A stretch of 53,177 nt of DNA from Thiotrichaceae bacterium (GCA_012960105.1 DUBV01000110.1:1-53177), one strand, 5' to 3'; positions 8,200-39,108 are shown, counted from the first letter of the stretch. Notes: generated by a model from the letters alone, not told the origin. Made by a program: numbers and translations.

Positions 8200-9135
8200 C
8201 TACTCAGTAATTCCCATCATTAATAAAACAAAATCCAAATCACTCGAATTAATTTGATAGGCTAATGAAGTTCGCAATAAAGGTTTTCCTTGAAAACTAA
8301 TGCCTAAACCTGCCGCTTGCAACATGAGCAGATCATTCGCACCATCACCGATACAACACGCCTCTTCAGGCTTAATCATTAATGACTGGCATTCTTCTAT
8401 TAACACATTCAGCTTTCTTGATGAATCGACAATCGGCTCCAATACCTTACCCATTAATTGATTATTTTCGAGTTGCATGCTGTTACAAACATAACGATCG
8501 AACCCCAGTTTTTCAGCAATAACTTTCACTATCGGTTCAAAACCACCGCTAACCAATACAGTTCGAATATTATTTTTTTTCGATTGCCTCAATAATATTT
8601 CTGCGCCAGGATTCAACTCTATCTTTTCAAGAATTTCCTCAAAAATAGATTCTGACAACCCTTTAAGTAAACTGACACGCTCATCTAATGCTTGTCGGAA
8701 ATCAAGTTTACCGCGCATAGCTCGAGCGGTAATTTGACTAACCTGTTCACCAATACCCGCGTGTGCAGCAAACTCATCCAGCGTTTCGTTTGCAACAATG
8801 GTGCTATCCATATCACAAACTAGAAGTTTTTTTATTCGAGAATTTGCTGGTATCACAGCAACATCAAACTCCTCATCCTCTGTCTGTATTAATATTTCTT
8901 TGAATAAAGTCCAGGCCTGTTGGCTTGTGTTTTTTATTGAAAGCTCAACAAATTTATTTGTAATAATTTTTGTTGAATGAGCAACAGTGTTCTTGTTACT
9001 CAAACACAGTTTAACTGTGTCAATATCCGCTTGTAATAAACCTGTTGCCGCAATAACAATTAAAAATTCCTGCTCATAGTCCCTAGTTGCTTTTAATAGC
9101 CAATAAGGGTCTAAATAATTTTGACTTTTATTCAT
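8200..9135 (-). CDS. serB: Phosphoserine phosphatase
   Basis: This HAD-family enzyme hydrolyses O-phosphoserine to serine, the last step of the phosphorylated serine pathway. The 311 residues include an N-terminal ACT-like region (about 20-95) and the catalytic domain. The nucleophile motif CDMDSTIVANETLDE places Asp108 and Asp110, VSGGF holds the Ser196 phosphate contact, and GDGANDLLML (263-272) is the metal-binding motif. It overlaps the end of serA by 4 bp (ATGA-type coupling), so the two are certainly co-transcribed. The length is like that of E. coli SerB (322). Confidence 0.97.
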   Translation of the reverse strand: MNKSQNYLDPYWLLKATRDYEQEFLIVIAATGLLQADIDTVKLCLSNKNTVAHSTKIITNKFVELSIKNTSQQAWTLFKEILIQTEDEEFDVAVIPANSRIKKLLVCDMDSTIVANETLDEFAAHAGIGEQVSQITARAMRGKLDFRQALDERVSLLKGLSESIFEEILEKIELNPGAEILLRQSKKNNIRTVLVSGGFEPIVKVIAEKLGFDRYVCNSMQLENNQLMGKVLEPIVDSSRKLNVLIEECQSLMIKPEEACCIGDGANDLLMLQAAGLGISFQGKPLLRTSLAYQINSSDLDFVLLMMGITE

Positions 9136-10727
9136 AAAGAAACAGCATCAAATCTTAAATATTGAGCGCTGCGAATGTGTTTAATTGATCTTAATGCTTT
9201 TAAATCTTCTTGTGTGACAGGTCCATCTATCTCTAGCAATGAGATCGCATCGCCTCGACTTTCCCTGCGTCCAAGGTGCATATTGGCAATATTAATATTT
9301 TTATCGGCGGCAAAATTACCGATTGCACCAATTGTGCCCGGTTCATCCTGATTAGTGATATACAACATATGTTCACCAAACTCTGATTCCAGCTTAATCC
9401 CTTTAATCTCAATTAATCTGGGACGGTTCTGTATTATCGTACCGCAAACACTTCGCGTTTTATCTTCTGTCGTAATACTGATGGTTACTCGGTTGTGATA
9501 CGCCTCTTCGAGATCTTCTTTCGCTTCGGTAACATGAATACCTCGATCACGTGCAACCTGGCGTGCATTAACCACATTGATATCACTAAAATGTGGTGCT
9601 AAAACCGATTGCACTACCTGAGTAGTTAATGGTTCCACATTTAACTTGGCTGCATCACCTGCGAAGGTCACTGTTATTCCTTGAATTGCTGTATGACTTA
9701 GCTGGCCAGCGAATGCACCGAGATAATTGGTTAACTGAAAATAGGGTGCTAACTGTCGTACCTCTTCTGCAGACAGATTTGGTGCATTCAGTGCGTTTTT
9801 AATCGAACCTTCTAAAAGATAATCCGAGATTTGTTCAGCAATCTGTACAGCAACCTTTTCCTGTGCTTCTGCTGTTGATGCACCGAGATGAGGTGTGCAT
9901 ATTACATTTTCTAAACCAAATAGCGGATTTTCCTTTGCCGGTTCTTCCAAAAAGACATCCAGTGCTGCACCTTTTATATGGGCACTCTTAAGAGCAACAT
10001 GTAATGCCAACTCATCAACCAAACCACCGCGAGCACAATTAATCAATAAGGCCCCTTTCTTCATCTTATTAATTGCAGTGGCATTGATGATGTTTTCAGT
10101 TTCAGGCGTCTTTGGAACATGTAAGGAAATCACATCAGAGCTAGTGAGCAATTCTTCTAACTCCACTTTTTTAACACCTAATGCATTAGCACGTTCTTCT
10201 GTTAAATAAGGATCATAGGCCTGTACTTTTAGACCAAAACCAATCGCCTTTTCGGCAACGATAGAACCGATGTTTCCTGAACCAATAATACCTAACAATT
10301 TGCCAGTTAATTCAATACCCATGTATTTAGATTTTGCCCAGGCACCGGCATGAGTAGTTTGGTTAGCTTGTGGGATATGTCGTGCCAAAGAAAACATCAT
10401 AGCCAAGGTATGCTCTGCCGTAGTAATAGCATTTCCCATCGGCGTATTCATCACCACAATACCTTTTTCTGTACAGGCAGGCACATCGACATTGTCGACA
10501 CCAATCCCTGCACGACCGACGACTTTTAATTGTGTAGCTGCTTGTAAAACCTTCTCGGTAACATTGGTAGCAGAACGAATCGCCAAACCATGAAAATCAG
10601 GAATCAATTCTAGTAATTCTTCTTCCGCCATCTTGCCAGTTTGAACAACATCAATACCACGTTGCTCGAATACATCCATGGCCTGACTGGACATTGGATC
10701 AGAAATTAATACACGTACTTTACTCAT
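9132..10727 (-). CDS. serA: D-3-phosphoglycerate dehydrogenase, long (ACT-containing) type
   Basis: This enzyme oxidises 3-phosphoglycerate to 3-phosphohydroxypyruvate with NAD+, the committed step to serine. At 531 residues it is the long form: catalytic and Rossmann domains (about 1-315), an intervening domain (about 320-450) and a C-terminal ACT domain (about 455-531). The nucleotide-binding GIIGSGNIGS spans 146-155, Arg233 lies in NCARGGLVDE and His280 in CTPHLGAST. Long SerA proteins resemble those of actinobacteria, alphaproteobacteria and eukaryotes more than the shorter E. coli enzyme. The start codon overlaps the serC stop by one base. Confidence 0.97.
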   Translation of the reverse strand: MSKVRVLISDPMSSQAMDVFEQRGIDVVQTGKMAEEELLELIPDFHGLAIRSATNVTEKVLQAATQLKVVGRAGIGVDNVDVPACTEKGIVVMNTPMGNAITTAEHTLAMMFSLARHIPQANQTTHAGAWAKSKYMGIELTGKLLGIIGSGNIGSIVAEKAIGFGLKVQAYDPYLTEERANALGVKKVELEELLTSSDVISLHVPKTPETENIINATAINKMKKGALLINCARGGLVDELALHVALKSAHIKGAALDVFLEEPAKENPLFGLENVICTPHLGASTAEAQEKVAVQIAEQISDYLLEGSIKNALNAPNLSAEEVRQLAPYFQLTNYLGAFAGQLSHTAIQGITVTFAGDAAKLNVEPLTTQVVQSVLAPHFSDINVVNARQVARDRGIHVTEAKEDLEEAYHNRVTISITTEDKTRSVCGTIIQNRPRLIEIKGIKLESEFGEHMLYITNQDEPGTIGAIGNFAADKNINIANMHLGRRESRGDAISLLEIDGPVTQEDLKALRSIKHIRSAQYLRFDAVSL

Positions 10728-11923
10728 TATACTTTCTCCTTAACACATTCAGCATTTACCCAGCGTTGATAGACCCAATCCAACCACGGTAATAGACTCT
10801 CTAAATCACTGGCCTCGATAGTGGCTCCACCCCATAAACGAAAACCGGGGGGCGCACTGCGATAGGCTGCAATATCATAGGCAACGCCTTCTTCTTCCAA
10901 CCACTGACACAGAATCTTTATCACTTTTTGTTGTGCTTCTTCGCTAAGTTCTACGAACGGATCATCGACGATCTTTAAACACAATGAGGTATTGGAACGT
11001 GTTGTTTCATCTGAAGGTAGCCAGTCTATCCACGCTGTTTTCGATACCCATTTATCAACGACATTGAAGTTGTTTTGGCAACGTTGAAATAAACCGGATA
11101 AACCACCGATAGAATCAGCCCAGTCTAATGCAGAATGAAGATCTTCCAGCGCCAACATGCTCGGCGTGTTAATGGTTGCACCTTTGAATATAGCGCTATC
11201 CAATTTTCCTTTTTTCGTTACACGAAATATCTTGGGTAAAGGGCGATCAGTTTGATAACTTTCCAGTCGTTGAACAGACCTGGGACTCAATGCCAACATA
11301 CCGAAACCACCTTCACTACCTAAAACTTTCTGCCAGGACCAGGTCACGACATCGAGTTTTTCATAATCTAAATCCATAGCAAACGCGGCAGAGGTTGCGT
11401 CACAAAAAACAATGCCTTCACGCTCGACAGAAACCCAATCCATGTTTGGAACGCGCACACCACTGGTGGTACCGTTATAGACAAACACCACATCACGATC
11501 AGCTCTGGCCTTGTTCAGATCAGGCAAGTCGCCATAATCTGCTTTATAAATATTTAAATCGTCGATTTTCAATTGGCCTTGAATATCATTGGCCCAATCA
11601 CTTGAAAAACTTTCCCAGACGAAAACGTCAACACCGCGTTGGCCTAACATTGACCACAGTGCTAACTCAAATGCGCCAGTATCTGATGCAGGTACAATGC
11701 CGAGTTGCCAATCGTCAGGCAAAGTTAATAATTCGGCAGAGCGAGTTATCGCTTCATTTAAACGGGATTTTGGTACGCTGGCTCGATGACTTCGACCCAG
11801 GTTATCCAGCGAAAAATTGGATAAATTCCAACCTGGATGTTTTTTACTCGGCCCGGATGAAAAACGAGGATCGTCCGGCCGCACGTCAGGCTTTTCACAA
11901 AGCCCTTTGGCAGATGTGTTCAT
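10727..11923 (-). CDS. serC: Phosphoserine aminotransferase, Methanosarcina/alphaproteobacterial type
   Basis: This PLP enzyme transfers an amino group from glutamate to phosphohydroxypyruvate. The 398-residue protein does not look like E. coli SerC (about 362). The N-terminus with RPDDPRFSSGPSKKHPGW and LGRSHRA is diagnostic of the second SerC family, first described from Methanosarcina and common in alphaproteobacteria. The PLP lysine is Lys199 in TWSWQKVLGSEGG, and FVYNGTTSGVRVP is the substrate/PLP pocket. It is the first gene of serC-serA-serB. A short hairpin (gacgg/ccgtc at 11944-11959) lies just upstream in the leader. Confidence 0.93.
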   Translation of the reverse strand: MNTSAKGLCEKPDVRPDDPRFSSGPSKKHPGWNLSNFSLDNLGRSHRASVPKSRLNEAITRSAELLTLPDDWQLGIVPASDTGAFELALWSMLGQRGVDVFVWESFSSDWANDIQGQLKIDDLNIYKADYGDLPDLNKARADRDVVFVYNGTTSGVRVPNMDWVSVEREGIVFCDATSAAFAMDLDYEKLDVVTWSWQKVLGSEGGFGMLALSPRSVQRLESYQTDRPLPKIFRVTKKGKLDSAIFKGATINTPSMLALEDLHSALDWADSIGGLSGLFQRCQNNFNVVDKWVSKTAWIDWLPSDETTRSNTSLCLKIVDDPFVELSEEAQQKVIKILCQWLEEEGVAYDIAAYRSAPPGFRLWGGATIEASDLESLLPWLDWVYQRWVNAECVKEKV

Positions 11924-12427: not shown

Positions 12428-13567
12428 ATGCTCACTGTTTCATCAGCCAATTTAAATATGAACGTACAAACTATAAAAAGAACGCCACTCTATCCTTTGC
12501 ATAAAGAACTTGGCGCACGCCTGGTGAATTTTGCAGGATATGAAATGCCTGTTCAATATTCTCTCGGCATAAAAAAGGAACACTTGCATGTTCGCAAAAA
12601 GGCCGGACTATTTGATATTTCACATATGGGTCAAGTCAATCTCTCCGGAGATCTTGCTGTACAAATGTTAGAAAAGATCACGCCATCTGATTTTCAATCA
12701 TTATCTGAAAGTCGGCAACGTTACAGTCTTTTAACAAATAATAACGGTGGCATTATTGATGATCTGATGATCACCAACACTGGTGATCATTTTTTTATTG
12801 TTGTTAATGCTTCTTGTAAAAAAAATGATATTGAATACATGAGGAATCAGTTAAGCACTGGCTGCATTCTTGAAGAAGTAAGCGATCATGCCTTACTCGC
12901 ACTACAAGGACCTCAAGCAAGCACAGTGATGCAACGTTTTTGTCCAGAGGCAACCAAGATGGATTTTATGACAGGCCGTCAATTTATAATCAATAGCACT
13001 AAATGTTTTATTAATCGTTGTGGTTATACAGGCGAAGATGGATTTGAAATTTCTATTCCATCTGAGTCTGCGATAACGCTTGCAAAATTATTATTAGCTG
13101 AAGATGAAGTTGAAGCAATCGGTTTGGGCGCACGTGATTCATTACGATTAGAAGCAGGCTTATGTTTATACGGACATGACATCGATGAAACGACAACACC
13201 TGTAGAAGCAAACCTTAATTGGGTTATTTCAAAGTCTCGAATAAAAGATAGCTCGCAATATTATCCAGGCATAGAAACTATTCGTAATCAATTAGCAGAT
13301 GGAATATCACGTTTGCGTATTGGTTTAGTGTCAGAAGGTAAATCACCGCTACGAGAAGGCATGACTATATTGAATGAAAAAGAAGAAACTGTCGGAAATT
13401 TAAGCAGCGGTGGCTTTAGTCCTAGTATCGAAAAGCCTATCGCCATTGGCTACATCGATAAGGAATACGCCGGTATAGGAACAAAGCTAATTGTTAAAGT
13501 TCGAGATCGTATTCAAAAAGTACATGTTATTGCTATGCCCTTTATCACGCACCAATATTATAAATAA
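12428..13567 (+). CDS. gcvT: Glycine cleavage system T protein (aminomethyltransferase)
   Basis: GcvT transfers the aminomethyl carbon held on GcvH to tetrahydrofolate, making methylene-THF and releasing ammonia. The 379-residue frame starts at 12428, but family alignment begins near RTPLYPLHKELGA, so the in-frame ATG at 12458 may be the real start. Neither has a convincing ribosome-binding site. Conserved blocks are YEMPVQY, LFDISHMGQ, RQRYSLLTNNNGGIIDDL and CGYTGEDGFEI. It opens a gcvT-gcvH-gcvP operon with gaps of 24 and 30 bp. Confidence 0.95.
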   Translation: MLTVSSANLNMNVQTIKRTPLYPLHKELGARLVNFAGYEMPVQYSLGIKKEHLHVRKKAGLFDISHMGQVNLSGDLAVQMLEKITPSDFQSLSESRQRYSLLTNNNGGIIDDLMITNTGDHFFIVVNASCKKNDIEYMRNQLSTGCILEEVSDHALLALQGPQASTVMQRFCPEATKMDFMTGRQFIINSTKCFINRCGYTGEDGFEISIPSESAITLAKLLLAEDEVEAIGLGARDSLRLEAGLCLYGHDIDETTTPVEANLNWVISKSRIKDSSQYYPGIETIRNQLADGISRLRIGLVSEGKSPLREGMTILNEKEETVGNLSSGGFSPSIEKPIAIGYIDKEYAGIGTKLIVKVRDRIQKVHVIAMPFITHQYYK

Positions 13568-13591
13568 TTAAATCAATAGGAAATAAATGTC

Positions 13592-13969
13592 ATGAGTGAA
13601 GTTAAATACAGCCAGGATCATGAGTGGTTGATTCTTAATGATGATGGCATCGCAACTGTAGGGATAACGGTTTATGCCCAGAAGGAACTGGGAGATGTCG
13701 TTTATGTAGAGTTGCCTGACATGGATAAACAAGTTGAAAAAGATGATGACGTTGCGGTAATTGAATCTGTTAAAACGGCCAGCGATATTAAATCACCCAT
13801 CAGTGGAGTAATAGTCGGGATCAATGACGATTTAAATGACGATCCAGAAAAAGTGAATGCTGATCCACAGGGTGAAGGCTGGATTTTCAAATTAAAACTG
13901 ACTGATGAGACGGAAATAAACCAATTAATGGATGAGTCTTCTTATAACGCTTATGTAGGTAACGCGTAA
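13592..13969 (+). CDS. gcvH: Glycine cleavage system H protein (lipoyl carrier)
   Basis: This 125-residue protein carries the lipoyl group that visits the P, T and L proteins of the complex. The lipoylation site is Lys61 in VIESVKTASDI, and the typical SQDHEWL start and GITVYAQKELGDVVYVELP segment are present. The family size is about 125-130. It lies between gcvT and gcvP in the same operon. No lipoate ligase or dihydrolipoyl dehydrogenase gene is nearby, so the L protein and lipoylation enzymes must be encoded elsewhere. Confidence 0.98.
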   Translation: MSEVKYSQDHEWLILNDDGIATVGITVYAQKELGDVVYVELPDMDKQVEKDDDVAVIESVKTASDIKSPISGVIVGINDDLNDDPEKVNADPQGEGWIFKLKLTDETEINQLMDESSYNAYVGNA

Positions 13970-13999
13970 ATTATACTTATTAAATAACTTGAGAAAGTA

Positions 14000-16906
14000 A
14001 TGACTGAGATAAAAAAATCCTTGGAGCAACTGGAAATGAGCGGTGATTTTATTCGCCGCCATATAGGGGCAACCGGCAAACAAATTACAGAGATGCTTGA
14101 ATATCTTGAACTGGATTCACTGGAAACGATTATTGAAAAAGTGGTTCCGGAAAATATTATTTCCCATGAACCTTTGGATCTACCAGAATCAAAAAGTGAA
14201 CGTGCGGTAACAAGCTATTTACGTAAGTTGCGCGAACGCAATGATGTCTTTGTTTCCATGATCGGCATGGGATATTACGGCACCCTGATGCCCTCCGTTA
14301 TTAAACGTAATGTACTGGAAAACCCGGGTTGGTATACCGCATACACACCTTATCAGGCTGAAATTAGTCAGGGTCGTTTGGAAGCATTACTGAATTACCA
14401 ACAAATGATCATTGATTTGACGGCAATGGAGATTGCCAATGCCTCACTACTGGATGAAGCCACGGCAGCGGCTGAAGCCATGTCGATGTCTAAACGTGTT
14501 AGCAAGTCTAAATCAAATAGTTTTTTTGTTGACCAGGATTGTCATCCGCAAACTATAGCGGTGGTACAAACCAGAGCGCGTTCTCTGGGGTTTGAAATTA
14601 TCATTGGAGATCCATTCAATGATCTTATAGAAAAAGAAGTGTTCGGTATATTGCTGCAATACCCCGGTTCCAGCGGACAAATAAAAGATATAAGAACGGT
14701 TATAAAAAGTGCGCATGATAAGTCAGCGTTGGTTACCGTTGCTACGGATATCCTAAGCCTTATTTGTTTAACGCCTCCGGGTGAAATGGATGCAGATATT
14801 GTTGTTGGCAGTTCTCAACGCTTTGGGGTGCCTATGGGTTATGGTGGTCCTCACGCAGCGTACTTTGCAACGCGAGAATCCCTTGTACGTTCAATGCCAG
14901 GAAGAATCATTGGTATTTCAGTCGACAGTCATGGTGAACCCGCGCTGCGCATGGCCTTACAAACACGTGAACAACATATACGTCGCGATAAAGCCACGAG
15001 TAATATATGTACCTCACAGGCTTTGCTCGCCATTATTTCCGGTTTTTATGCTATGTATCATGGTGCAAAAGGACTTCGCCTCATTGCTAGTCGAGTTCAC
15101 CGTATGGCACAAATATTTGCTTCCGGTTTATCACAACTTGGTTATGAAATTAAAACTGAGGCTTACTTCGATACGATCACAGTCAGTGTACCGGGTAAGG
15201 CAAGACGGTTAGCAGCAAAAGCGCGCAAGTCCACTATCAACTTACGTTTCGTTGATAAGGATACACTCGGTGTTTCATTTGATGAGACGATTACTCGAAT
15301 AGATTTAAAGAACCTGTGGCGTGTATTCGATTCCAATGCAGATAAAAAGCTGAATGGTAAAACGATTGATGAGTCGATTGAGGAATGTATTCCACAGGAA
15401 CTTCAACGCAACAGTGATTTTTTGACGCATCCCGTATTTAAAGATTATCAATCTGAAACTGAGATGATGCGTTATATGCGTCGCCTTGCACGAAAAGATA
15501 TTGCACTGGACAGAGCAATGATTCCTTTAGGTTCCTGCACTATGAAACTCAATGCAGCCGTTGAAATGCGAGCACTATCCTATCGTGAATTCAGTGCTAT
15601 GCACCCTTTTGTACCACTTGATCAGGCACAAGGTTATTTACAATTATTTGAAGAATTGGAAAGTATGCTTTGTGACTTAACCGGTTTTGATGCTTTTTCA
15701 TTACAACCCAATGCCGGTTCACAAGGCGAGTACGCGGGTTTGTTAGTTATTAGAAAATATCATGAAATTCGTGGTGAAGGACAACGTGATATATGTTTAA
15801 TTCCAGCATCGGCACATGGCACCAATCCCGCCAGTGCACGTATGGCCGGCATGAAAATTATTGTAGTTGCCTGTGATGATAATGGTAATGTTGATGTTGA
15901 TGATCTGAAAAACAAAGCCGAACAACATTCACAGAATTTAGCCGCACTAATGATCACCTACCCATCAACACACGGTGTCTTTGAAGAAGCCTTTCGCGAT
16001 ATTTGTGATGTCATCCATCAACATGGCGGTCAAGTCTATATGGATGGTGCGAATTTTAATGCTCTAGTCGGCATCAGTCGTCCAGGGAAAATAGGTGCGG
16101 ATGTGTCCCACATTAATTTACACAAAACATTTTGTATTCCCCATGGTGGTGGCGGCCCAGGTGTTGGACCTATTGGTGTGAAGGGGCACCTAGCACCTTA
16201 CTTACCCGATCATCCTGTAGTTGAAGGTGTGAACCCAGATGCCAGCCCGCAGGGGACTATCGGTACAATTTCAGCTGCGCCTTGGGGATCTGCCAGTATT
16301 TTATCAATCTCCTGGGCCTATATCGCCATGATGAGAGACAGCGGATTAAGACGCGCAACTTTAGTTGCGATATTAAATGCAAATTACATCGCGAAACGTT
16401 TGGCACCTCATTATCCGATTCTTTATACCGGGAAAAATAATATGGTGGCACATGAATGCATTATTGATCTACGACTTATAAAAGCAGCATGTGGGATCAG
16501 TGTCGATGATGTCGCCAAACGACTAATCGATTATGGCTTTCATGCGCCGACCATGTCATTTCCGGTTGCAGGTACCTTGATGATAGAACCGACAGAGAGC
16601 GAAAATAAACGCGAAATTGATCGCTTTTGTGAAACCATGATTTGTATTCGTAAAGAAATTGAATCCATCGAAAAAGGTGAAGCAGACCCGGATAACAATG
16701 TACTTCGTAATGCACCACATACGCATAGAGATTTAATTTCAGAAGATTGGAATCATCCCTACAGCAAGCAACAGGCTTTTTTTCCAATGCCTGAAATACA
16801 CAATGATAAATACTGGCCACCAATTGGCAGAGTCGATAATTTGCATGGAGATAAGCATTTGTTTTGTAGTTGTGCTCCTCTAAGTGATTATGAAGAAGTA
16901 ACGTAA
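14000..16906 (+). CDS. gcvP: Glycine dehydrogenase (decarboxylating), P protein
   Basis: This PLP enzyme decarboxylates glycine and loads the aminomethyl group on GcvH. It is the single-chain form at 968 residues (usual about 950-970), not split into GcvPA/GcvPB. The PLP lysine is Lys709 in NLHKTFCIPHGGGGPG. Other family blocks are FIRRHIGA at the start, YTPYQAEISQGRLEALLNYQ, LDEATAAAEAM, QTREQHIRRDKATSNICT and IPLGSCTMKLNA. It is followed after 60 bp by the large flavoprotein gene with no obvious terminator between them, so read-through is likely. Confidence 0.98.
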   Translation: MTEIKKSLEQLEMSGDFIRRHIGATGKQITEMLEYLELDSLETIIEKVVPENIISHEPLDLPESKSERAVTSYLRKLRERNDVFVSMIGMGYYGTLMPSVIKRNVLENPGWYTAYTPYQAEISQGRLEALLNYQQMIIDLTAMEIANASLLDEATAAAEAMSMSKRVSKSKSNSFFVDQDCHPQTIAVVQTRARSLGFEIIIGDPFNDLIEKEVFGILLQYPGSSGQIKDIRTVIKSAHDKSALVTVATDILSLICLTPPGEMDADIVVGSSQRFGVPMGYGGPHAAYFATRESLVRSMPGRIIGISVDSHGEPALRMALQTREQHIRRDKATSNICTSQALLAIISGFYAMYHGAKGLRLIASRVHRMAQIFASGLSQLGYEIKTEAYFDTITVSVPGKARRLAAKARKSTINLRFVDKDTLGVSFDETITRIDLKNLWRVFDSNADKKLNGKTIDESIEECIPQELQRNSDFLTHPVFKDYQSETEMMRYMRRLARKDIALDRAMIPLGSCTMKLNAAVEMRALSYREFSAMHPFVPLDQAQGYLQLFEELESMLCDLTGFDAFSLQPNAGSQGEYAGLLVIRKYHEIRGEGQRDICLIPASAHGTNPASARMAGMKIIVVACDDNGNVDVDDLKNKAEQHSQNLAALMITYPSTHGVFEEAFRDICDVIHQHGGQVYMDGANFNALVGISRPGKIGADVSHINLHKTFCIPHGGGGPGVGPIGVKGHLAPYLPDHPVVEGVNPDASPQGTIGTISAAPWGSASILSISWAYIAMMRDSGLRRATLVAILNANYIAKRLAPHYPILYTGKNNMVAHECIIDLRLIKAACGISVDDVAKRLIDYGFHAPTMSFPVAGTLMIEPTESENKREIDRFCETMICIRKEIESIEKGEADPDNNVLRNAPHTHRDLISEDWNHPYSKQQAFFPMPEIHNDKYWPPIGRVDNLHGDKHLFCSCAPLSDYEEVT

Positions 16907-16966: not shown

Positions 16967-19900
16967 ATGAACTGTTCTAATTTAAAAAGTAAAACTCCAT
17001 CTGATACAGATATGACCTTAGGTATACCGGGTTTTGTTTACAGTGATTTATATTCTTCAAACCGTCTGTATCAATTACACGAAGTTTTTACTGAACAGGT
17101 AGAAAAAGAAGCTCCTGAGCTTATGTCAGAATTTCGTCAATATAAAATCAGTCAAGGCGATGGAATGTCACCCCAAAGTATTTCCGATTTGTTAATCCGT
17201 ATGGCTCCACACGTTGGTGCATTTCTCGCCATGTTATTTCAGGTGGAAATAGTACGACAGCAACAGCAAAAATTAATACAAAAAGAAATTAATACTGTGT
17301 TTGCATTTCGTAATAAAGTCGTATTGAAACTATCAAAAAAATTCAAGCAACAAGATATAAATGAATATAATAAAGAAAAGGTTTTCTCAGACTTAGATAT
17401 GTTGCGCCAGGTTGCTTTCAATCAACTTAAAGTCGTTGATGATCTGGAAATGGCTATCTCACACGTTGGCTTAACGCTAGCTGAGCTGCGTAAACATTAT
17501 CAATGTTTGGCCAAAGAAAAAGCGAGCACATATATTGATGCAGACGCCGAGGTAGAAGCTCTACGAAATAAACTGGAACAACATGCAAATGCAAAACAAA
17601 CCTTTGCAACAAGCCTATCTACAACAAACCCTGAGGCATTTATAGAAAGTTTATTTGGCTATGTTGAACGTTGGATTTTTGTTGCACGAAAAGATGAACA
17701 AACTAAATCATGGTCTTGCTTCAAAGTCGCTGAGAAAAAAGATTTTGATGACTTAGTCAAACATCAAACACTTGAAAAAAATGGTTTTGATGCATGGGTA
17801 TGTGATGAACATCAACGAAATTACCGTGATGGTTTTAAACTGACTGATCATCGATACAATCAACGCCAAACTCTATATGAAGTTGAACACTGTATCTATT
17901 GTCATGAGCGAGATACAGATTCTTGCTCCAAAGGTATGCGTAATAAACGTAGCCACGAATTTAAAGCGAATCCTTTGGGTGAGTCGATTCTAGGGTGTCC
18001 TTTGGGCGAGAAGATATCGGAAATGCATATTGTCAAACGTCAGGGTGACAATATTGCCGCTCTTGCGATAGTTATCATTGATAATCCAATGTGTCCTGGT
18101 ACGGGTCACCGTATCTGTAATGACTGCATGCGTGGCTGCATATACCAAAAGACTGAAGCGGTTGATATCCCTCAGATCGAGACTAATGTACTTACCGATG
18201 TATTGTTCATGCCTTATGGGTTTGAGATTTATAGTTTATTGACTCGCTGGAACCCACTTAATATCAAGCGACCCTATGCATTACCTTATAATGGTAAAAA
18301 TGTCATGGTCGTAGGGATGGGCCCAGCCGGTTATACCTTAAGTCATTATCTATTGAATGAAGGCTTTGCTGTCGTTGGTATAGATGCGCTTAAGATTGAA
18401 CCATTAGCAGAAGAACTGGTAGGTAGTAAAGGAACAGCACCTAAGCCAATACACGATTTCAATAAATTATATGAAACTCTTGATGAACGAACCTTAAATG
18501 GATTTGGTGGTGTAGCCGAGTATGGTATTACGGTACGTTGGGATAAAAACTTTCTTAAAGTTATATATCTGAATCTTCTCAGGAATAATGCATTTCGCTG
18601 TATGGGTGGTGTCCGATTTGGTGGCACACTGACTATTGAGGATGCCTGGGAATTTGGCTTCGACCATGTTGCAATTGCCAGTGGTGCAGGTAAGCCAACT
18701 ATCATTGATCTGAAAAATAATATGATCCGGGGTATTCGTAAGGCATCGGATTTTCTTATGACCTTACAATTATCAGGTGCCTCAAAAGCAAATTCTCTTG
18801 CTAATCTTCAAGTACGTTTACCTGCTGGTGTGATTGGTGGTGGACTCACCGCAATTGATACTACAACTGAAGTACTCGCCTATTATCCTGTCCAGGTAGA
18901 AAAAATATTGAATCGATATGAAACACTGATCGAATCAAATGGAGAAAAAAATGTTCGCGCTATTTATGACGGCGAGGAAATCGAAATTCTGGATGAATTT
19001 CTCAGCCATGGTAACGAAATCCGCGCTGAACGAGAACGCGCTTTGGCAGCAGATGAAAAGCCGGATTTTACCCGCTTAGTGAATAAGTGGGGAGGCGTAA
19101 GTCTCTACTATCGCAAAGGAATAAAGGATTCACCTGCCTATAGACAAAACTATGAAGAAGTACATGAGGCTCTAAAAGAAGGTATAGAGCTGGCCGAAGG
19201 CATGACTCCTATTGAGGCTATCGAAGATCAACACGGTGCATTGAAATCCGTAAAGTTTAATAAACTCATAGAACAGAATGGAGGCAAAGAAGAAATAGAA
19301 GTACCTATCAAAAGCCTTTTCATCGCTGCAGGGACATCACCGAATACTATTTATCAGCAGGAATTCCCATCTACATTCCGTATGGATAAAAAGTTTTTTC
19401 AGCGTTATGAACCGAATTGGACTGATGATGACCTACCCGACTTAGTGCCAATGGAAGATGTAACGTCTCCGAAACTAGGTAAACCAGCACCGTTTACCTC
19501 TTATCAAAAAGATGGAAAATTTGTCTCTTTCTATGGTGATAATCATCCCGTTTATGCCGGCAATGTAGTTAAGGCAATGGCTAGTGCTAAAGATGGATAT
19601 CCGTATATATCAAAATTATTTGAAAAAGAAATTGCTACATTATCGCCAGAGTCGCATGAATTACGTCAAGCAGCACTTGGCAAATTCTTTGATAATCTGG
19701 AACAAGAGTTATTGGCAACGGTTGTTAAGATCAATCGTTTAACTCCAACTATTGTTGAAATCATTGTACATGCGCCGCTACAGGCCAGAAAGTTTCAACC
19801 AGGGCAATTTTACCGTGTACAGAATTTTGAATATCTGGCAGCAACAGTAAAAAACACTAAACTCGTTGCAGAAGGCATTGCCCTGACAGGCGCCTGGGTT

Positions 19901-20716
19901 GATAAAGAAAAAGGACTAATTTCACTTATCGCATTGGAAATGGGCAGTTCATCACGTTTATGTGCTATGTGGGAGCCGGGCGATCCATTGGTGATTATGG
20001 GTGTAACTGGCGCACCGACTGAAATCGTAAATAATCAGACTATTATGTTGATCGGTGGAGGTCTCGGCAATGCAGTCCAATTTTCTATTGGCAAGGCATT
20101 TAAAGCGGCGGGTAATAAGGTGATCTACTTTGCGGGCTATAAATACGCTAAAGATGTTTTCAAGATAAAAGATATAGAGGAGGCTTCTGATGCCATTGTT
20201 TGGTCTGTTGATCCCGGTACCGACGTTAAAGCAATCGAAACGACGCGATCACAAGACAAGACTATAGTGGGGAATATCCTTGAAGCTATAGAAGCTTATG
20301 CGAAAGGTGATTTAGGTGATGTGGATATCTTGCTTGATGATGTTGATCAAATGATTGTCATCGGTTCCGATGGTATGATGTCTGCCGTTAAGGAAGCTCG
20401 CTTTGGTCGATTAAAAGAATATTTCAAACCTGAACACAAGGCTATTGGTTCAATCAATTCGCCCATGCAATGTATGATGAAAGGCGTGTGCGCGCAGTGC
20501 TTATGTAAACATGTTGATTCCAGGACAGGTGAGGAATATTTTGTTTACTCTTGTTCCAATCAAGATCAAGATTTGGACAGAGTCGACTTCACAAATCTTA
20601 GAGCGCGTTTAAGACAAAATAATGTTCAGGAAAAGTTATCCGCTCTTTGGCTTGATCATCTACTATCTTCCATGAAGACAGATGAACCAGCTTTTAAAAT
20701 AAACAAGTCTAGCTGA
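16967..20716 (+). CDS. Fused GltD-like/PyrK-like flavoprotein (Nfn-type oxidoreductase) with a novel N-terminal region
   Basis: This 1249-residue protein has at least three parts. Residues 1-300 match nothing I recognise and include a Gln/Lys-rich helical segment (about 95-140). Residues 305-395 hold Cys309, 312, 320, 344, 376, 384, 387 and 391, arranged as in the iron-sulfur domain of GltD and dihydropyrimidine dehydrogenase. Residues 445-800 form a two-dinucleotide-binding flavoprotein with GMGPAG (450-455) for FAD and GVIGGGLTAID (621-631) for NAD(P)H. Residues 910-1210 look like PyrK/NfnA: an FAD domain with GQFYRVQ, a nucleotide site IGGGLGNA (1029-1036) and C-terminal Cys1169, 1175, 1178 and 1196 fitting a 2Fe-2S site. 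Nfn enzymes couple NADH, NADPH and ferredoxin. Gene order behind gcvTHP suggests a link to glycine-derived reducing power, which is inference. Confidence 0.75.
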   Translation: MNCSNLKSKTPSDTDMTLGIPGFVYSDLYSSNRLYQLHEVFTEQVEKEAPELMSEFRQYKISQGDGMSPQSISDLLIRMAPHVGAFLAMLFQVEIVRQQQQKLIQKEINTVFAFRNKVVLKLSKKFKQQDINEYNKEKVFSDLDMLRQVAFNQLKVVDDLEMAISHVGLTLAELRKHYQCLAKEKASTYIDADAEVEALRNKLEQHANAKQTFATSLSTTNPEAFIESLFGYVERWIFVARKDEQTKSWSCFKVAEKKDFDDLVKHQTLEKNGFDAWVCDEHQRNYRDGFKLTDHRYNQRQTLYEVEHCIYCHERDTDSCSKGMRNKRSHEFKANPLGESILGCPLGEKISEMHIVKRQGDNIAALAIVIIDNPMCPGTGHRICNDCMRGCIYQKTEAVDIPQIETNVLTDVLFMPYGFEIYSLLTRWNPLNIKRPYALPYNGKNVMVVGMGPAGYTLSHYLLNEGFAVVGIDALKIEPLAEELVGSKGTAPKPIHDFNKLYETLDERTLNGFGGVAEYGITVRWDKNFLKVIYLNLLRNNAFRCMGGVRFGGTLTIEDAWEFGFDHVAIASGAGKPTIIDLKNNMIRGIRKASDFLMTLQLSGASKANSLANLQVRLPAGVIGGGLTAIDTTTEVLAYYPVQVEKILNRYETLIESNGEKNVRAIYDGEEIEILDEFLSHGNEIRAERERALAADEKPDFTRLVNKWGGVSLYYRKGIKDSPAYRQNYEEVHEALKEGIELAEGMTPIEAIEDQHGALKSVKFNKLIEQNGGKEEIEVPIKSLFIAAGTSPNTIYQQEFPSTFRMDKKFFQRYEPNWTDDDLPDLVPMEDVTSPKLGKPAPFTSYQKDGKFVSFYGDNHPVYAGNVVKAMASAKDGYPYISKLFEKEIATLSPESHELRQAALGKFFDNLEQELLATVVKINRLTPTIVEIIVHAPLQARKFQPGQFYRVQNFEYLAATVKNTKLVAEGIALTGAWVDKEKGLISLIALEMGSSSRLCAMWEPGDPLVIMGVTGAPTEIVNNQTIMLIGGGLGNAVQFSIGKAFKAAGNKVIYFAGYKYAKDVFKIKDIEEASDAIVWSVDPGTDVKAIETTRSQDKTIVGNILEAIEAYAKGDLGDVDILLDDVDQMIVIGSDGMMSAVKEARFGRLKEYFKPEHKAIGSINSPMQCMMKGVCAQCLCKHVDSRTGEEYFVYSCSNQDQDLDRVDFTNLRARLRQNNVQEKLSALWLDHLLSSMKTDEPAFKINKSS

Positions 20717-20788: not shown

Positions 20789-20828
20789 AAAGCCATTATC
20801 TCTTATTGAGATAACGGCTTTTATTTTT
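20789..20828. terminator. Bidirectional terminator between the flavoprotein and PfkB kinase genes
   Basis: The stem agcc-ttatctc/gagataa-ggct (one mismatched pair, ttatt loop) is followed by a T-rich run on the plus strand. The A-rich 5' flank gives a weaker T run on the minus strand. It lies between two convergent genes. Confidence 0.75.
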
Positions 20829-36977: not shown

Positions 36978-37466
36978 TTATCTTTGCTTATAGATTGGAA
37001 CTGCATCATCTGCAGCAGCCTGATAACGAACTGAGAAGTCATTTAGACTTTTAATTGCATCTTCAATGTCTTTATCTTCACGCACTTCGTAACTGTCCAT
37101 GCCACATCGTTGCATATAAAATAGTTGATCACGCAAAACATCTCCTATTGCGCGCAGCTCACCTTTATAAGCATAACGTTGACGTAATAAACAAGCATGT
37201 GAATAAGAACGGCCATCTTTGAATGCAGGAAAATCCAGCGCAATTATTGAAAAGTGTTCTAGATCATCAAGCAAGGCTTCTGTTTCTGTATCACCATCAA
37301 TCCAGACCGCGTGTTCTGTATCACGCTTCAATAATTCATCCCGGCTCGCTTGCCAATCGATAAATGGCAAAATAACTTTGCCCTCTGGTATTGGTTTTGA
37401 ACAATCAAGTTCACGGATCAGTTGCCAATCATCATTAACAACTGCTTTATCTTTAATTACTCGCAT
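36978..37466 (-). CDS. DUF934-family protein, sulfite-reductase partner
   Basis: The start at 37466 gives 162 residues (MRVIKDKAVVNDDWQLI) and has an aagga ribosome site at normal spacing. A longer frame to 37580 overlaps the reductase gene by too much to be real. The family core is seen in VILPFIDWQASRDELL, IALDFPAFKDGRSYSHACLLRQR and LRAIGDVLRDQLFYMQRCGMDSYEVR. DUF934 proteins are nearly always encoded directly after a ferredoxin-type sulfite reductase and are needed for, or linked to, sulfate assimilation. The 14-bp overlap with that gene here fits translational coupling. The biochemical role is not settled as far as I know. Confidence 0.88.
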   Translation of the reverse strand: MRVIKDKAVVNDDWQLIRELDCSKPIPEGKVILPFIDWQASRDELLKRDTEHAVWIDGDTETEALLDDLEHFSIIALDFPAFKDGRSYSHACLLRQRYAYKGELRAIGDVLRDQLFYMQRCGMDSYEVREDKDIEDAIKSLNDFSVRYQAAADDAVPIYKQR

Positions 37467-39108
37467 AAACACGTTCCTTAAAAAGTGTAATACCAACACG
37501 ACGATAGGTTTCAAGAAAGGCTTCGTCTTCTTGACGTTGCTCGACATAAACATCGAGTATTTTACCAATAACATCGGCAACTTCTTCTTTAGCTACGGCT
37601 TTACCAAGACGATCGCCTAATGTCGCATCGGTTTCTGCTGAACCACCAAGCGTCAGTTGATAAAACTCCACACCTTTTTTATCGACACCTAAAATTCCAA
37701 TATGACCAACATGATGATGCCCGCAAGCATTCATACAACCTGACATTTTAATTTTTATATCACCGATATCATGCAAGTAATCCATGTCAGAAAATTTATC
37801 ATTAATTTGTTTTGCAATCGGTATAGAACCCGCATTAGCTAATGAACAAAAATCCAGACCAGGACAACAAATCATATCCGTTAATAAACCAATGTTTGGT
37901 GTAGCCAGTTTTTTCTCTGCCAACTTTTCCCAAAGAGAAAATAAGTCCGCTTGTTTCACATTACACAACACAACATTTTGATCATGGGTAACAACAATCT
38001 CACCATAACTATATTCATCGGCAAGGTCGGCAATATGATCCATTTGTTCATCAGTGACATCACCTGGTGGAATATCAGGTGCTTTCAATGAGATAACAAC
38101 GGCGCTATAACCTGCGACTTTATGTGGAAATAAATTTCTACCTGCCCAATTAGAAAATGCTTTATTCGATTCTTTAGCCGCATCAAAACTCGTATCATCG
38201 GCAGCATTTGTATCGTAGTCAGGTGGTGCAAAATAGGCTTTTACTCGATCAATTTCTTTTTGATCAAGTTTCATAACGCCATCTTTTATATGCAACCATT
38301 CTTCTTCGACTTGTTTAGCAAACTCTTCAGTACCCAATGCATTCACTAATATCTTAATACGTGCTTTATACATATTGTCTCGTCGACCGAAACGATTATA
38401 AACACGCAAGACTGCTTCCAAATAAGAAAGTAAATCTTCTTTTGCCAGAAATGATTTGATACTCGGACCGATAAATGGCGTACGACCTAAGCCACCACCA
38501 ACAAAAACATTGAACCCCACAACACCTTCATCGTTCTTGACTAAATAAAGACCAATATCATGAACTCTTACCGCAGCACGGTCATGTGAAGCGCCAGACA
38601 CGGCAATTTTAAATTTTCGGGGTAAATAGGAAAACTCTGGATGGAGCGTTGACCACTGTCGAATAATTTCGCAATACGGTCTTGGATCTTCAAGCTCATC
38701 TACTGCTATACCAGCAAATTGGTCAGAGGTCGTGTTACGAATATCGTTACCACTAGTCTGAATAGCATGCATCTCAACTGTAGCAAGCTCAGCCAAAATA
38801 TCCGGAACGCTTTCCAGTATTGGCCAATTGTATTGAAGATTTTGTCGCGTACTAAAATGCGCGTAATTCTTATCATACTTTCTTGAGATATGTGCCAACT
38901 TTCTAAGTTGTTCGCTCGAAAGTAAGCCATATGGAATAGCGACTCTCAACATAGGCGCATGAGTTTGAATATAAAGCCCATTCATCAAACGCAATGGTCT
39001 AAATTCTTCTTCGCTTAATTTTCCGGCAAGAAATCGTTCGGTTTGATCACGAAACTGATTTACTCGCTCATTAACTATCGTCTGGTCGTAATTATCGTAC
39101 TTATACAT
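37453..39108 (-). CDS. Siroheme nitrite/sulfite reductase (ferredoxin-type, CysI-like)
   Basis: This 551-residue enzyme should reduce sulfite to sulfide, or nitrite to ammonia, by six electrons. It carries the siroheme-[4Fe-4S] ligand set C415-x5-C421 (CCPGLDFC) and C458-x3-C462 (SGCMNACG). The two half-domain repeats are visible: RVAIPYGLLSSEQL and STRQNLQYNW in the first, and VVTHDQNVVLCNV in the second. The pairing with DUF934 and the lack of nitrite-transport genes favour assimilatory sulfite reduction. No flavoprotein subunit (cysJ) is next to it, so ferredoxin or another donor is likely. Regulation cannot be read here. Confidence 0.9.
   Translation of the reverse strand: MYKYDNYDQTIVNERVNQFRDQTERFLAGKLSEEEFRPLRLMNGLYIQTHAPMLRVAIPYGLLSSEQLRKLAHISRKYDKNYAHFSTRQNLQYNWPILESVPDILAELATVEMHAIQTSGNDIRNTTSDQFAGIAVDELEDPRPYCEIIRQWSTLHPEFSYLPRKFKIAVSGASHDRAAVRVHDIGLYLVKNDEGVVGFNVFVGGGLGRTPFIGPSIKSFLAKEDLLSYLEAVLRVYNRFGRRDNMYKARIKILVNALGTEEFAKQVEEEWLHIKDGVMKLDQKEIDRVKAYFAPPDYDTNAADDTSFDAAKESNKAFSNWAGRNLFPHKVAGYSAVVISLKAPDIPPGDVTDEQMDHIADLADEYSYGEIVVTHDQNVVLCNVKQADLFSLWEKLAEKKLATPNIGLLTDMICCPGLDFCSLANAGSIPIAKQINDKFSDMDYLHDIGDIKIKMSGCMNACGHHHVGHIGILGVDKKGVEFYQLTLGGSAETDATLGDRLGKAVAKEEVADVIGKILDVYVEQRQEDEAFLETYRRVGITLFKERVYASN

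Follow-up and report, generated by a model that had tools for sequence, protein, structure and literature searches.

A single-chain, Nfn-like flavoprotein encoded behind gcvTHP in a Thiotrichaceae bacterium, probably an NADPH-ferredoxin oxidoreductase

The 53,177-nucleotide stretch of Thiotrichaceae DNA analysed here (GCA_012960105.1 DUBV01000110.1:1-53177, hereafter the window) encodes a fused, Nfn-like flavoprotein of 1249 residues (16967..20716, + strand). With moderate confidence, we interpret this protein as a soluble NADPH-ferredoxin oxidoreductase that consists of one chain and has an NAD(H) branch; it is Nfn-like in build but distinct from canonical Nfn. The predicted fold, the order of the modules and the conservation of the cluster and nucleotide motifs are shown by the analysis, whereas the ferredoxin partner and the direction and coupling of electron transfer are inferred. 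In the N-terminal, GltD/NfnL-like half, NADPH would reduce the FAD, from which electrons would exit through two [4Fe-4S] clusters to ferredoxin, most likely the 7-iron-type FdxA, and also through a four-cysteine [2Fe-2S] cluster and the FNR-like half to NAD(H). We think of a reversible hub linking ferredoxin, NADPH and NAD(H), and not of a strong bifurcase, because the four-cysteine [2Fe-2S] cluster replaces the high-potential, Asp-ligated cluster of Nfn.

The ORF is open and intact, stop codon included, and the gene is defined by this frame, an NCBIfam match and homologues. Full-length homologues share 36-75% identity, and proteins of the same length recur among congeners, at 73-75% identity, among the family's other genera, at 66-67%, and also far outside the family. 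The protein consists of an N-terminal helical domain, an NfnL-like half and an NfnS-like half, in this order. Pyr_redox_2 is the sole Pfam match. The NCBIfam model NF005128 (PRK06567) covers residues 44-767 (E 1e-192) with 642.6 bits, below its curated cut-off of 1072 bits, a value reached in no sampled genome, and PyrK/Nfn-type NCBIfam models match the C-terminus. A terminator-like hairpin, identified by pattern match only, lies between the flavoprotein gene and the convergent downstream gene (20789..20821, - strand). Between or before the genes Rfam detected no structured RNA; its single match in the window was a tRNA at another position.

A profile of 19 homologues, searched against solved structures, retrieved NfnI, Xfn and NfnAB first, and PyrK and GltD next. 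The AlphaFold model of residues 34-1233, obtained with 52 sequences, has a pLDDT of 86.5 and a pTM of 0.88. In Foldseek and VIA comparisons, the best fold matches were Pyrococcus NfnI L (5jfc_L; TM 0.79, VIA Z 25.0) for the L-half and NfnI S (5jca_S; TM 0.84, VIA Z 30.9) for the S-half. The L-half is an NfnB-like module, featuring two Rossmann domains and a helical domain that carries two [4Fe-4S] sites, as evidenced by its fold, seven cysteines and Glu405, and the S-half is an NfnA-like module with the FNR fold. The initial annotation, which had described the protein as an Nfn-like single chain, is borne out by these profile and fold matches and by an invariant arginine, R524, at the N5 position.

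Two [4Fe-4S] sites of the GltD/NfnL type map to residues 309-405 (17891..18181, + strand) and comprise C309, C312, C320, C344, C384, C387, C391 and E405. They were located by conservation in 84 family sequences and by alignment to NfnL, with the ligation pattern taken from PMC8097209 and PMC6405883, and the assignment of single ligands is provisional. Eight cysteines reported earlier (309, 312, 320, 344, 376, 384, 387 and 391) are all present, and all but the non-conserved C376 are invariant or nearly so, C320 being replaced by Ser in 1 of the 84 sequences. In GltD-like proteins, one [4Fe-4S] cluster carries a Glu ligand (PMC8097209). Glu405 is invariant in the 84 sequences and aligns with the Glu of the NfnL motif GKLER.

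The nucleotide motifs also proved to be as previously listed: GxGPAG (450-455) lies in the FAD-binding Rossmann segment (residues 445-475, 18299..18391, + strand; Pyr_redox_2 and alignment), GGGLTAID (624-631) in that of the NADPH domain (residues 620-640, 18824..18886, + strand; alignment) and GGGLGNA (1030-1036) in the FNR-like module. R524 (18536..18538, + strand), found in 84/84 sequences, aligns with R201 of P. furiosus NfnL, which we take to be the N5 arginine, and is replaced by Lys in the organism's own GltD. An arginine at N5 of the bifurcating FAD is conserved in Nfn (PMC6405883). A YRK motif (residues 713-728, 19103..19150, + strand) aligns with the NfnL YRR taken to read the NADPH phosphate, and R716 of this YR(R/K) motif is invariant in the 84 sequences.

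The FNR-like module, with the NfnS/PyrK fold, spans residues 915-1160 (19709..20446, + strand), as indicated by NCBIfam, profile and fold, and features a variant flavin motif, EGIALT. Downstream, a PyrK-type [2Fe-2S] site (residues 1165-1200, 20459..20566, + strand; alignment and conservation) is formed by Cys 1169, 1175, 1178 and 1196, conserved throughout the 84 sequences. Four PyrK-type cysteines had been counted at the C-terminus; four are indeed conserved, but the region contains five in all. The Asp ligand of the [2Fe-2S] cluster and the a-FAD strand ERxPxT are hallmarks of Nfn (PMC6405883). Neither is found here: the motif DGTGMCGxCRx10CV, with its Asp(Cys)3-ligated cluster, is replaced by QCMMKGVCAQC...C, with Cys for Asp in 84/84 sequences, and ERxPxT is replaced by EGIALT in the window protein and by EGxAxT in proteins of the window type, which keep E and T and lose R and P. 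Because of these two departures, the flavoprotein is not filed as Nfn, although it may work like Nfn or NfnII. Cofactor occupancy is presumed from the motifs. FAD binding in the S-half is uncertain because the Arg of ERxPxT is Gly; the lost flavin arginine is perhaps compensated by the invariant R950.

The protein could alternatively be a complete bifurcating or confurcating Nfn, working as one chain in aerobes according to 2 NADPH + NAD+ + 2 Fd(ox) = 2 NADP+ + NADH + 2 Fd(red). The window type has all five cofactor sites and keeps GGGLGNA, and the N5 arginine, Lys in GltD, is invariant; NfnI is, moreover, the first fold match. We nonetheless regard this as unlikely, since every sequence has Cys in place of the Asp ligand of the [2Fe-2S] cluster, the potential of which is +80 mV in Nfn (PMC6405883), and known Nfn, like electron bifurcation in general, is considered almost exclusive to anaerobes (PMC6085437), whereas homologues of the flavoprotein, found in many phyla, are abundant in methanotrophs, myxobacteria and acidobacteria. 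Judged from the sequence, the absence of the Asp ligand and of two ERxPxT residues, Arg and Pro, appears to weaken the case for NADH/NADPH/ferredoxin bifurcation. The family, which has all the Nfn cofactor sites, extends over methanotrophs, myxobacteria, acidobacteria and genome-reduced proteobacteria, and Nfn-type coupling in aerobes is thus directly testable.

The N-terminal domain (residues 16-267, 17012..17767, + strand) was delimited by AlphaFold and by Pfam, PDB and genome searches. Folded alone, it is all helices, with a pLDDT of 95.1. Pfam searches to E 10 gave weak matches only, all below cut-off; Foldseek found nothing in the PDB below E 0.78 and gave only helical noise of ferritin/Dps type from E ~0.8 upwards, and the best VIA match had a Z of 4.9. 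The earlier view of this region as a domain of its own accords with these searches, although the lack of a PDB match alone is no proof of a new fold. The further statement that about 300 N-terminal residues fit no family holds for Pfam, but NF005128 runs through them, below its cut-off. Among 274 gammaproteobacterial genomes, the domain is confined to this flavoprotein, except for a copy truncated where a contig of G281 ends and a 98-residue stretch in G253 (G253:C1:238818-239060, locus L225), where the remaining gene is gone; the latter seems to be what is left of a lost gene and not a free-standing domain.

This domain might hold the substrate site of a reductase acting on an as yet unnamed small molecule, by analogy with DPD, in which the catalytic domain is separate and is supplied by a GltD-like module. 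Service to other catalytic domains is common among GltD-like modules (PMC8097209), and the N-terminal domain is well folded, family-specific and lacks a known fold match. However, it is the least conserved part of the protein, with a mean column identity of 29% and four invariant columns, which does not resemble a catalytic site, and the searches did not find it in the flavoproteins of G153 and G265; we consider such a role quite improbable. Low sequence conservation would fit docking or regulation better than catalysis, and in the NADPH-ferredoxin oxidoreductase that we favour the helical domain probably docks a partner or a second chain.

In a tree of 65 sequences, the window protein groups with its congeners, and the sequences lacking the GGGxGNA motif form one group (support 100), consistent with one change. 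In this gammaproteobacterial clade, use of NAD(H) by the S-half has probably ceased; the NAD branch would have been lost, leaving a plain NADPH-ferredoxin reductase by analogy with NfnII/Xfn. Some genomes carry two copies of different flavoprotein subtypes (G022, loci L006 and L016; G050).

The order fdxA (divergent), grxD (CGFS glutaredoxin) and flavoprotein gene is found in six genomes (G028, G051, G089, G153, G196 and G265) from four gammaproteobacterial families, and nadA follows the flavoprotein gene in four of them. The members of this neighbourhood present in the 65-sequence tree all fall in the group lacking GGGxGNA. Both fdxA and grxD belong to iron-sulfur metabolism. In small and mid-size gammaproteobacterial genomes, the genes form a block of iron-sulfur genes (fdxA, grxD, flavoprotein, in some cases rhodanese, nadA), as at L157:5934-12123 in G196 and at L158, L160 and L204. 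Full-size homologues, counted from matches below E 1e-100, are present in 52 of the 274 sampled gammaproteobacterial genomes. All 52 carry fdxA (PF11953), compared with 165 of the other 222 (Fisher p 1.8e-6, not corrected for kinship); since fdxA is common (79% of the sampled genomes), co-occurrence alone is weak evidence. Linkage between fdxA and the flavoprotein gene is absent from the window's own lineage, and in this genome fdxA maps to contig C82. No conserved neighbours were found in the long-type branch across the neighbourhoods compared. FdxA, a ferredoxin of the 7-iron type with a DUF3470 tail, is the likeliest ferredoxin partner, and the flavoprotein family is a candidate FdxA reductase.

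A bolder extension would make the protein an oxygen-compatible, one-chain Nfn variant that couples NADPH, NAD(H) and FdxA in aerobes and reduced-genome bacteria and feeds iron-sulfur assembly or further ferredoxin-dependent processes, its helical domain being a new fold that serves ferredoxin docking or regulation; taken as a whole, this picture is doubtful. A possible ferredoxin user in the window is a 551-residue siroheme reductase (37453-39108, - strand), for which the closest models, none reaching its cut-off, are those of NirA/ferredoxin-nitrite reductase and sulfite reductase; the 200-residue gene that follows matches no NCBIfam model. Replacement of the membrane transhydrogenase was considered and rejected, PntB being found in 36/52 homologue-bearing and 125/222 other genomes (p 0.12). 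A pntB gene lies less than 3 kb from the homologue, on the same strand, only in G144 (L153) and G258 (L154), which belong to one genus.

The public name, which combines glutamate synthase beta and polyprenylphenol hydroxylase, is misleading and hides the flavoprotein family. The "glutamate synthase subunit beta" of this name and the GltD-like half would suggest an alternative small subunit passing NADPH electrons to GltB, a very improbable role, as the organism holds a complete, adjacent GltB-GltD pair on contig C63, and GltBD leaves no role for a PyrK-like half. Several genomes, G074, G153, G175, G196 and G265 among them, carry the flavoprotein with no match of GltB strength, and partnership with GltB is rejected as a general role.

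The gcvT, gcvH and gcvP genes (12428..16906, + strand) lie directly upstream of the flavoprotein gene. The gap after gcvP is 60 bp, both genes are on the same strand, and no terminator-like site was found between them on the + strand; co-transcription with gcvTHP is therefore possible in this genome. The divergent serB, serA and serC genes (window 8200-11923, - strand) complete a serine/glycine cluster, and the serA-serC/gcvTHP order recurs in the relative G019 (L216) with no flavoprotein gene behind it. The initial annotation had proposed a tie to glycine cleavage, to be abandoned should orthologues prove scattered, and had suggested a survey of whether they stay next to gcvP. They are scattered. 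No gcv genes were found beside the homologue at 80 named loci with flanks of up to 10 kb; a single gcvH, in L065, is 8.7 kb distant. Of 40 relatives, five that carry the homologue (G003, G006, G011, G022 and G023) lack a full gcvP; gcvP is on a contig other than the homologue's in G009 and ~33 kb from it in G019. In the congeners G003 and G006, the flavoprotein gene is placed behind 23S-5S rRNA genes, and in G009 and G011 the contig ends ~700 bp before the gene, as in G006, which fits the same rRNA location. The gcvTHP operons of G001, G007, G009 and G019 have no flavoprotein gene behind them. Among the genomes examined, the adjacency is confined to this one, and a role as the glycine cleavage system's own electron-transfer partner, sharing a transcript with gcvTHP, is refuted as a family trait and extremely unlikely here.

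Compared with known systems, the flavoprotein most resembles Nfn (P. furiosus 5jca/5jfc, T. maritima 4ylf/4yry). Both have the two modules, the GltD-like two-cluster layout with a Glu ligand, the N5 and NADPH arginines and an FNR-like module with a C-terminal [2Fe-2S] cluster. The window protein (19-28% identity) differs in being one chain, with an extra helical N-terminal domain of ~270 residues and an insert of ~75 residues between GGGLTAID and YRK, in addition to Cys for the Asp ligand and EGxAxT for ERxPxT. NfnII/Xfn (5vj7), reported as an NADPH:ferredoxin reductase with no NAD activity (PMC8097209), shares the Nfn architecture and has the plain reductase role proposed for the clade lacking GGGLGNA, but is composed of two subunits, whereas the window protein retains the NAD motif. 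GltD has the same cluster layout and Rossmann domains; the organism's own GltD, in contrast, adjoins GltB and has Lys at the R524 position. PyrK likewise features a four-Cys [2Fe-2S] site after the FNR module, but no pyrD was recognised beside the flavoprotein gene. The closest named family is NF005128/PRK06567 ("putative bifunctional glutamate synthase subunit beta/2-polyprenylphenol hydroxylase", 1031 residues), the match to which includes the N-terminal domain; no paper was found under the family names or PRK06567. Uncharacterised fused Nfn homologues with C-terminal NfnA cofactors, termed Pattern C, have been described in Actinobacteria and in Alpha- and Gammaproteobacteria (Liang et al. 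2019, PMC6405883), and the single-chain Nfn is therefore not new as an idea. Pattern C proteins resemble the window protein in these respects; judged by description only, they are ~200 residues longer than the fused clostridial Nfn, so roughly 950 residues compared with ~1150-1250 here, and no helical N-terminal domain is described for them (PMC6405883). In the literature searched, we found no mention of the helical domain, of an association with FdxA and GrxD or of a clade that lost the NAD site. New here are the family-specific, all-helical N-terminal domain, the clade lacking the second NAD site, the fdxA-grxD neighbourhood in four gammaproteobacterial families and the presence of fdxA in every sampled homologue-bearing genome.
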